A stretch of 64,000 nt of DNA from Burkholderiales bacterium (GTDB taxonomy: Bacteria; Pseudomonadota; Gammaproteobacteria; Burkholderiales; Burkholderiaceae_C): positions 1 to 64,000 of the forward strand of contig JAIOOS010000006.1 in assembly GCA_021414305.1 (NCBI GenBank), given 5' to 3'. Each line of letters starts with the position of its first letter. Within the stretch, counting starts at the first letter, position 1. The notes under the pieces are model-generated. The model made no database searches, was not told the DNA's origin, and saw only the letters and a list, made by a program, of their open reading frames with translations. Below are positions 53,221 to 56,172 of this stretch, one piece after another. The position numbers and the translations under genes were made by a program.

Positions 53221-53691
53221 ATGACCCCCATCGCCACCCCCGCCGATACCGAGCAGGCGCTCGTCCTTCGCCGCGTCTTCGACGCGCCGCCGCAAACCGT
53301 CTTTCGCCTCTGGTCCGACCCGGCCCGGGTCAAGGAGTGGTGGCATCCGAAAGACTTCACCACGCCCACCTTCGAGATGGACTTCCGCGAGGGCGGCGCC
53401 TATCGATACAGCATCCGCTCCGAGAAGAATCACGGCTGGGCGCACGGCGTCTATCGGGAGATCGATGCGCCGAACCGCCTGGTGATGAGCTTCCAGTGGG
53501 AAACCGGCGACGTCGCGCACGACCAGCCGACGCTGATCACGATCACATTCGAGGCCGAGGGCGAAGGCAAGACGCTGCTCACCTTCCGCCAGGAGCCCTT
53601 CAGCTCGGAAGGCGAGCGCCTCAGCCACGGCGCCGGCTGGGGCCAGGTGCTGGACGCCTTCGCCCAGGTGCTCGCGGGAGCGAACTCGTGA
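53221..53691 (+). CDS. SRPBCC (AHSA1-like) domain protein
   Basis: A 156-residue protein of the Aha1/START-like group: LVLRRVFDAPPQTVFRLWSDPARVKEWWHPKDF, MDFREGGAYRYSIRS, and the C-terminal helix GWGQVLDAFAQVLA. These partner ArsR repressors widely; their ligands are mostly unknown. Its ATG follows an AGGAATC site. The stop overlaps the GST-like start (GTGA). Confidence 0.9.
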   Translation: MTPIATPADTEQALVLRRVFDAPPQTVFRLWSDPARVKEWWHPKDFTTPTFEMDFREGGAYRYSIRSEKNHGWAHGVYREIDAPNRLVMSFQWETGDVAHDQPTLITITFEAEGEGKTLLTFRQEPFSSEGERLSHGAGWGQVLDAFAQVLAGANS

Positions 53692-54347
53692 TCCGCCTCA
53701 GCGCGTTCCGCTGGGTGCCGCCGTTCGCCCAGGGCCTGGTGCGCGACCTGCGCGTGCGCTGGGCGCTCGAGGAGGCCGCCCTGCCGTACGAGGTGATGCT
53801 GATCGGCTTCGAGGACCAGAAGTCCGACAGCTACCGCAAGATGCAGCCCTTCGGCCAGGTGCCGGCGATCGATGACGATGGCCTCGTGCTGTTCGAGTCG
53901 TGCGCGATCGTCATGCATCTCGGCGAGCGCTCGCAGGCGCTGATGCCGGGCGACGAGCCGGCGCGGGCGCGCGTGCGGACCTGGATGCTCGCCGCGCTGA
54001 ACACGATCGAGCCGCCGATCATGATGCTCAACTACATCGACATGCAGCCCGATGGCGCGCGGGCCGGCGCCAGGGAGGTCCGCGACTCGATCGTCGCCTG
54101 GATCGGCATGCGGCTCGACAACCTCGCCGCCTTCCTCGGCGACCGCGAGCACCTGGTCGAAGGCCGCTTCACCGCGGCCGACCTGCTGATGACCACGGTG
54201 CTGCGCATCCTGCGCACCACCGACCTCGTCAGCCAGCGACCGACGCTCGAGGCGTACAAGCAGCGCCATGAGGCCCGGACGGCTTTCCAGAAGGCGCTCG
54301 GCGACCAGCTCGCGGCATTCGCGAAGCACGCGCCGCCGAAACAGTGA
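53688..54347 (+). CDS. Glutathione S-transferase family protein
   Basis: A 219-residue two-domain protein. Thioredoxin-like half: IRLSAFRWVPPFAQGLVRDLRVRWALEEAALPYEV, GQVPAIDDDGLVLFESCAIVMHLGER. Helical half: ADLLMTTVLRIL with the conserved Asp. No Cys or Ser is in the usual first-helix position, so the nucleophile is unclear. The start GTG overlaps the SRPBCC stop, placing it as the third gene of the ArsR operon. It could be a transferase or a reductase. Confidence 0.88.
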   Translation: MIRLSAFRWVPPFAQGLVRDLRVRWALEEAALPYEVMLIGFEDQKSDSYRKMQPFGQVPAIDDDGLVLFESCAIVMHLGERSQALMPGDEPARARVRTWMLAALNTIEPPIMMLNYIDMQPDGARAGAREVRDSIVAWIGMRLDNLAAFLGDREHLVEGRFTAADLLMTTVLRILRTTDLVSQRPTLEAYKQRHEARTAFQKALGDQLAAFAKHAPPKQ

Positions 54348-54426
54348 CGAGAGCCGCCGCCGGCGACGCCTTCTTCCTCCATGATGGGAACCGCCGGGCT
54401 CTCCGGCGACCTGTCTGGAGGACACC

Positions 54427-56172
54427 ATGCCCGCCGTCAACTGGGATCAACCGTCGACCGGCCTCGTCAGCGACGCCGCCCCTTCGCTGCTGCTGAAGAA
54501 CGACAAGGGCGAGGCGCTCAACGCCCGCTCGAGAGACGTCGCGATCGACGCCGTCTCCAAGGAGGCCGAGGCGCTGCTGGCGCGCACCGACAAGACGGTG
54601 GCTGCCAGGATCCGCTCCGACCAGTTCATCGGCGCCATCGCCTACGGCCCCAAGGCCACCGGCGCGATCGGCGTCAACGAGGCGGCCGCGGTGGCGCTCG
54701 GCGGCGTCAATCTCGTCGACCCCGCCAAACCGGTCGACAGCCGCGACGGCATCGGCGTCGCCGGCATATCGAACCGGGCGGTCGGCTACGGCGTCGTCGG
54801 CACCACCTTCGGCATCCGCTCGGTCGGCGTGCTGGGCAATGCGGCGGCAGGCGGCGTCGGCGTGCGCGGCACCGGCTCGCAAGGCGGCGTCGAAGGCACG
54901 TCCAGCCAGGGACATGGTGTCTCGGGAACGAGCCAGTCGAAGACCGCCGCCGGCGTGTTCGGCTTCGCGCCCGGGCCCCAGGGCGGCGGCGTGTTCGGCC
55001 AGAGCGCGGCCGGCGCCGGCGTCGACGGCAGCTCGAGCGCCGGCACCGGCGTGCGCGGCACGAGCGTGCAGGCGCGCGGCGTCGTCGGCGAGTCGACCGG
55101 CAGCAATGCCTCGGGCGTGTTCGGCCGCAACGATCTCGGCAACGGCGTCGGCGTCGACGCCTTCAGCCAGGCCGGCACGGCGATGCGCGCGAACAGCGGC
55201 AGCGGCACCGGCCTCGTGGTCCAGTCCTTGTCCGGCGGTGGCATCGACGTCGGCAACAACAGCACGAGCAAGCCCGCGCTCAAGGCCTACTCGCCGGGCA
55301 AGCCTGCGGTCGACGCGATGTCGCTGACCGACGCCGGCGTGCGCGCCGGCAGCGCCCACGCCGGCGTCGTCGGCGTGGCCATCGCCGCGAGCAAGGCGGG
55401 CGACCCCGAAGCCGGTTGCGGGGTGTACGGCAACTCGATGGGTGGAGTCGGCACCTGCGGCATCACCTTCATCGGCACCGGCGTGCTCGGCATCGGCTAT
55501 CCGCAGCTCAATGCCTGGGCGGGACGCTTCATCGGCAACGTGCACGTCGACGGCATCCTGTTCAAGTCGGCGTCGATGTTCTCGATCGACCATCCGCTCG
55601 ACCCGAAGCGCAAGGTCCTGAACCACGCCTGCGTCGAATCGCCCGAGTACAAGACCTTCTACGACGGCAGCGTCACGCTCGACCGGCGCGGCCAGGCGAC
55701 GGTCAAGCTGCCGCGCTGGTTCGACGCGCTCAACCACGAGCTGCGCTACCAGCTCACGTCGATCGGCGCGCCCGCGCCCGAACTGCACGTCGCGCGAGAG
55801 GCCAAGGCCGGGTCGTTCGCGATCGCCGGCGGCTCGCCCGGCCAGCGCGTGTGCTGGCAGGTCACGGGCGTGCGCCGCGATGCCTGGGCCAAGGCGCACC
55901 CGATGCAGGTCGAGCAGGCCCGCAGCAAGGCACGGTCGGCTGCGCCGCCGGTGACCCTGGCCGACGCCAGGCGCGCCGCCGCGCTCGCCGAGAAGGCGGC
56001 GAAAGCGCTGCATGCGACCGAAAAGGCGCAGCGCAAGCCGGCTCGCCCGCCCGCGGCGCTTGACCTGGCGGCCGTCAAGCCGCCGGCAGGCAGCGACGAG
56101 GGCCGCACCGAGCGCACAGCGCGCGACCTGGTGCGCGAGATCGGGCGGCTGGCGCCGTTGCGCGAGAGCTGA
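54427..56172 (+). CDS. Glycine-repeat beta-structure protein with conserved C-terminal domain, unknown function
   Basis: 581 residues, start ATG after GGAGG. Residues 1-100 are mixed. Residues about 108-350 hold many degenerate G-V-x-G units (GVAGISNRAVGYGVVGTTFG..., GVLG, GVRG, GVFG, GVYG), typical of a beta-helix or prism as in tail-fibre-like proteins. Residues about 370-490 are a distinct domain: GRFIGNVHVDGILFKSASMF, DHPLDPKRKVLNHACVESPE, LPRWFDALNHELRYQLTSIG. The tail about 500-581 is Ala/Lys/Arg-rich and helical. No signal peptide or anchor. I cannot assign a function; an extracellular or structural role is only a guess. Confidence 0.8.
   Translation: MPAVNWDQPSTGLVSDAAPSLLLKNDKGEALNARSRDVAIDAVSKEAEALLARTDKTVAARIRSDQFIGAIAYGPKATGAIGVNEAAAVALGGVNLVDPAKPVDSRDGIGVAGISNRAVGYGVVGTTFGIRSVGVLGNAAAGGVGVRGTGSQGGVEGTSSQGHGVSGTSQSKTAAGVFGFAPGPQGGGVFGQSAAGAGVDGSSSAGTGVRGTSVQARGVVGESTGSNASGVFGRNDLGNGVGVDAFSQAGTAMRANSGSGTGLVVQSLSGGGIDVGNNSTSKPALKAYSPGKPAVDAMSLTDAGVRAGSAHAGVVGVAIAASKAGDPEAGCGVYGNSMGGVGTCGITFIGTGVLGIGYPQLNAWAGRFIGNVHVDGILFKSASMFSIDHPLDPKRKVLNHACVESPEYKTFYDGSVTLDRRGQATVKLPRWFDALNHELRYQLTSIGAPAPELHVAREAKAGSFAIAGGSPGQRVCWQVTGVRRDAWAKAHPMQVEQARSKARSAAPPVTLADARRAAALAEKAAKALHATEKAQRKPARPPAALDLAAVKPPAGSDEGRTERTARDLVREIGRLAPLRES

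Follow-up and report, generated by a model that had tools for sequence, protein, structure and literature searches.

A leaderless GVxG-repeat protein of a Burkholderiales bacterium ends in an unnamed domain that appears to cap phage, injection-system and adhesin fibres

Introduction

The foot of the R-type pyocin fibre, AP22 gp53, and the C-termini of several tailspikes have a common fold, which in the case of the R-pyocin foot was called a lectin fold by the authors (PMC6363177). eCIS can carry up to four fibres per baseplate, and SLL-type lectin tips are named among the eBAP3 fibres in the eCIS fibre catalogue (PMC12923769). The MAT fibres of Bdellovibrio are modular proteins with exchangeable C-terminal tips (PMC10769870). 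In the Arthrobacter phages Mufasa8 and Sonali, gp19 is encoded directly after the tape measure and minor tail genes.

A 64,000-nucleotide stretch of a Burkholderiales genome (the window) encodes a protein, here called the GVxG protein, which an earlier note had described as fibre-like with a separate C-terminal module. The homologous domain was indeed found in tail-fibre and injection loci. Judged from sequence, this tip domain appears to cap phage tail fibres, fibres of injection machines, and secreted bacterial adhesins, and here it stands alone. The GVxG protein shares its C-terminal domain family with the eCIS tail fibres of actinomycetes, which are encoded by tandem genes in the fibre position of injection loci; unlike them, it is encoded outside an injection locus, and its N-terminus is different. 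The C-terminus of Mufasa8 and Sonali gp19 is likewise homologous (34-38% identity) with a matching predicted fold, but gp19 is shorter, lacks the GVxG repeats, and belongs to a phage tail operon. Many tip-domain homologues have a MAT-like N-terminus, whereas the GVxG protein has neither this N-terminus nor a signal peptide. The predicted β-sandwich aligns with the R-pyocin foot, AP22 gp53, and tailspike lectin fold over about 70 residues (Z 6-8); however, profile searches of PDB sequences gave no match to the R-pyocin foot or other members of the discoidin-like lectin fold, and the tip domain differs from the foot, AP22 gp53, and the tailspike fold in having one more conserved segment, FxIDHPLDP, on its N-terminal side. 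Because its locus is neither a phage tail nor an injection locus, the protein is not classified here as a phage or eCIS fibre, and for want of the signal peptide and MAT N-terminus it is not classified as a MAT protein. It belongs to a known kind, as an orphan and leaderless variant, and its tip domain comes from a family that has no name.

The gene and its product

The reading frame begins with ATG at 54427 and runs for 581 codons without interruption, behind a Shine-Dalgarno-like sequence (Table 1). Its GC3 is 0.93, like that of its close neighbors, the GST and AEC genes. A full-length homologue of 580 residues (L078) was found in a Nitrospirales genome; it is 51% identical and has the same start, MPAVNW. 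The open frame, ribosome site, GC3, and full-length homologue establish the ORF as genuine. Identity with L078 differs by part: it is 47% in the repeats, 74% in the tip domain, and 25% in the tail, with the value for the N-terminal region given in Table 1. Some 600 bp upstream of the L078 homologue, the Nitrospirales genome carries a phage-type integrase gene (L078:3156-4319), which hints at a mobile element there.

Table 1. Features of the GVxG protein gene and its upstream neighbors, in window positions.
Feature	Position	Strand	Basis
SRPBCC/AHSA1-type ORF	53221-53691	+	name from sequence reading
GST-type ORF	53688-54347	+	name from sequence reading
Shine-Dalgarno-like GGAGG, 5 nt before ATG	54417..54421	+	direct reading
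ORF, 581 aa, leaderless GVxG fibre-like protein	54427..56172	+	reading frame; full-length homologue L078
N-terminal region, residues 1-109; 52% identical in L078	54427..54753	+	Pfam/NCBIfam, N-terminus check, alignment
Degenerate GVxG repeats, residues 110-362, proposed trimeric shaft	54754..55512	+	repeat statistics
Conserved C-terminal domain, residues 363-497 (HMM core 373-487 = 55543-55887), predicted β-sandwich fibre tip	55513..55917	+	profiles, alignments, model
Basic helical tail, residues 498-581	55918..56169	+	model, homologue alignment

The N-terminal region matched no family in Pfam or NCBIfam. No signal peptide is evident, in agreement with the earlier note, and the N-terminus is kept in L078. 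The G-V-x-G repeats noticed in the sequence also hold up statistically: the motif occurs 15 times in residues 71-365, mostly at a spacing of 10 or 12 residues, whereas shuffling these residues 10,000 times yielded 2.1 copies on average and never more than 9. Structure prediction, which had been suggested as a check, gave a confident model of the C-terminal domain, while the repeats in the full-length AlphaFold monomer reach a pLDDT of only about 36-53 and show no confident repeat fold. As the monomer model is poor in this part, a β-helical shaft is put forward here as a proposal. The basic helical tail is present in both the AlphaFold model and the alignment with L078. Most homologues end in VE..K..ERGkYLHPE.yG, and the GVxG protein and L078 have the basic helical tail there instead.

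The C-terminal tip domain

A separate conserved domain had been placed at about residues 370-490; the domain itself was borne out, with longer borders (Table 1). Neither the domain nor the whole protein found anything useful in Pfam and NCBIfam, and PDB sequences, searched with the whole protein and two profiles, returned chance matches only, so that the domain is still without a named family, as had been proposed. In the Pfam and NCBIfam searches, a RepA match (E 0.1) was dismissed as chance. Only two PHROGs reach the domain and both are of unknown function. F, DHP, L, H, E, Y, G, and R are invariant or nearly so, and the string DHPLDP did not occur in the literature searched.

In the AlphaFold model the domain consists almost entirely of strands which form a β-sandwich, with a pLDDT of 92.6, in line with the separate folded module proposed in the earlier note. 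Its best solved structural neighbor is the tip of the Pam1 tailspike, with a Z of 8.2 over 68 residues, a score near the noise level of the tool, and Foldseek E values against the PDB were above 0.001. Further neighbors are the R2 pyocin fibre, AP22 gp53, the C-terminus of the K1 lyase, and the LKA1 and phi297 tailspikes, together with the lectins SLL-2 and Helix agglutinins. This set is close to the one reported for the R-pyocin foot (PMC6363177). Against viral models, Foldseek gave 22 matches with E below 0.001, the best of them to the minor tail protein of Mufasa8 (E 4.8e-12). Since each Z is modest and the E values against the PDB exceed 0.001, a fold shared with fibre feet and lectins is likely for the modeled domain rather than proven. 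The SLL lectin tips of the eBAP3 fibres (PMC12923769) may include the tip domain described here.

Distribution of the domain

The earlier note had seen in the protein its strongest candidate for something undescribed. The domain, at least, is neither rare nor confined to this protein: it has a wide distribution, and the fold predicted for it is similar to that of known fibre feet. At least 574 GTDB genome stretches encode it, and the best 80 of these span more than 20 phyla (read from record titles) with 51-74% identity. In nearly all homologues the domain is C-terminal. Among viruses, besides gp19 of Mufasa8 and Sonali, it forms the C-terminus of long tail-fibre-like ORFs in 71 IMG/VR loci; these loci were retrieved with an alignment query, while a single domain sequence found nothing. 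Proteins encoded beside the viral copies match PHROGs for tail fibre, minor tail, baseplate hub, and tape measure proteins.

Cellular copies occur in three settings: injection loci, secreted fibres, and leaderless orphans (such as the GVxG protein and L078). In seven actinomycete loci, one to four tandem copies occupy the tail-fibre position next to Baseplate_J genes or genes of contractile injection systems. In five of the genomes (Acrocarpospora, two Herbidospora, Nonomuraea, and Amycolatopsis), one to four tandem domain genes share a contig with a sheath gene at a distance of 10-16 kb. The order in Amycolatopsis is sheath, CIS_tube with LysM, Phage_base_V, Baseplate_J, Tail_P2_I, and then the domain gene, and an AAA+ ATPase comes next in the loci of Acrocarpospora and Herbidospora. 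In Kitasatospora and in Streptomyces griseus, a Baseplate_J gene is followed on its contig by a tandem set of two to four genes for leaderless proteins that have both GVxG repeats and the domain, the architecture of the GVxG protein itself. The suggested search for homologues in tail-fibre or contractile-injection loci was therefore positive on both counts. A sheath gene was not found in most of the other domain-bearing genomes searched.

A sheath-like ORF of Kitasatospora had no Pfam or phage match and was not accepted as a sheath, hence the locus is called only Baseplate_J-containing. In the loci of Kitasatospora griseola and Streptomyces griseus (L167, L169, L184), a very large protein with β-propeller-like matches also precedes the tandem GVxG proteins, and the tail-like locus is otherwise barely recognized by Pfam.

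With regard to the secreted form, many homologues start with a signal-like stretch, as judged by a rough measure of hydrophobicity. The NCBIfam model of the Bdellovibrio-type MAT N-terminus is matched (E ≤ 0.01) by 19 of 55 other homologue N-termini. Paceibacterota-type genomes encode short signal-bearing proteins in which YYSQSTYYSQ-like repeats precede the tip domain (L116:5806-6507, L141:5515-6486, L153:5785-6516).

In a domain tree built on 124 columns, in which many other forks are open, the GVxG protein and L078 group together (support 100/100) within a set of 16 rows which holds all five eCIS copies (99/86).

Genomic setting

Neither phage genes nor export genes adjoin the GVxG gene, as the earlier note had stated. 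The ArsR-type, SRPBCC/AHSA1-type, and GST-type genes form a block that is conserved in one sister genome without the fibre gene. Sister genomes retain the GST neighbor and lack the fibre gene, which was not found in the five other genomes of the genus nor in 299 sampled genomes of the family. The genes downstream of GST differ among the sister genomes, and no clean empty site was found. Moreover, sheath and Baseplate_J genes were not found in the genome of the GVxG protein, which leaves it no particle to sit on. This genome has one Phage_base_V gene, which encodes VgrG and belongs to a T6SS cluster. This cluster (G000:C20, about 72800-88900; L183:2806-18921) contains VgrG, a ClpV-like ATPase, and TssF by Pfam, as well as FHA-like and Hcp-like ORFs recognized by eye, and is the only tail-like machinery found in the genome.

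Interpretation

The GVxG protein is probably a leaderless, trimeric fibre with a lectin-like foot, gained horizontally from the fibre pool of phages and injection systems; we hold this reading with moderate confidence. Three chains would probably be wound together, the GVxG repeats forming a β-rich shaft, and the C-terminal β-sandwich would close the trimer as a lectin-like foot, putatively binding a surface glycan. The gene would stem from a tail-fibre pool common to phages and contractile injection systems and would have entered this lineage by horizontal gain. Under the best reading, the protein would act like a tail fibre or a fibrous adhesin. The reading frame, the repeats, the common domain and its placement in phage and injection loci elsewhere, the predicted fold, and the patchy presence are given by the data; from these we infer trimerization, the fold of the shaft, binding to a glycan, and a role as an adhesin that needs no particle. 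Several observations count against a fibre: the genome has no sheath or Baseplate_J gene, no signal peptide or export gene accompanies the protein, and the repeats are not confidently predicted as a monomer. Moreover, 51-74% identity of the tip domain in the best 80 of at least 574 stretches exceeds the usual conservation of receptor-binding tips.

The domain could instead be mainly a trimerization or folding cap, comparable in position to the S74 chaperone, which binds nothing and leaves specificity to another part of the fibre. Such a role would fit its C-terminal place in nearly all homologues and its very strong conservation from phylum to phylum, including residues that vary little or not at all. 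However, Pfam found no Peptidase_S74 domain in the GVxG protein, and the nearest structural matches are with fibre feet and lectins, which include proposed or established sugar binders; we consider a pure cap rather unlikely. A free adhesin on the cell surface, like the MAT fibres of Bdellovibrio and exported by an unrecognized route, would agree with the MAT and signal-like N-termini of many homologues, but the GVxG protein itself has neither and we consider this improbable. We are equally doubtful that the gene is a relic, a fibre gene now out of use that outlived the phage or injection locus it came from. While its orphan position, its absence from the related genomes sampled, and the GST neighbor kept in sister genomes without it point in that direction, the frame is intact over all its codons, the ribosome site is good, GC3 is host-like, and the full-length homologue is conserved, most strongly in the domain.

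Beyond the fibre reading preferred above, one unnamed tip family might circulate among phages, injection particles, and free adhesins in more than 20 phyla, and cells like this one might keep leaderless fibres for use without a particle, released by lysis or an unrecognized route; this wider proposal is speculative and on balance unlikely. Despite its spread, neither Pfam nor NCBIfam has a model for the domain, and naming it would make fibre and adhesin genes now called hypothetical recognizable and would connect phage fibres, injection-system fibres, and MAT-like adhesins. It also offers a clean case in which to ask whether fibre tips move between systems and which glycan they bind.
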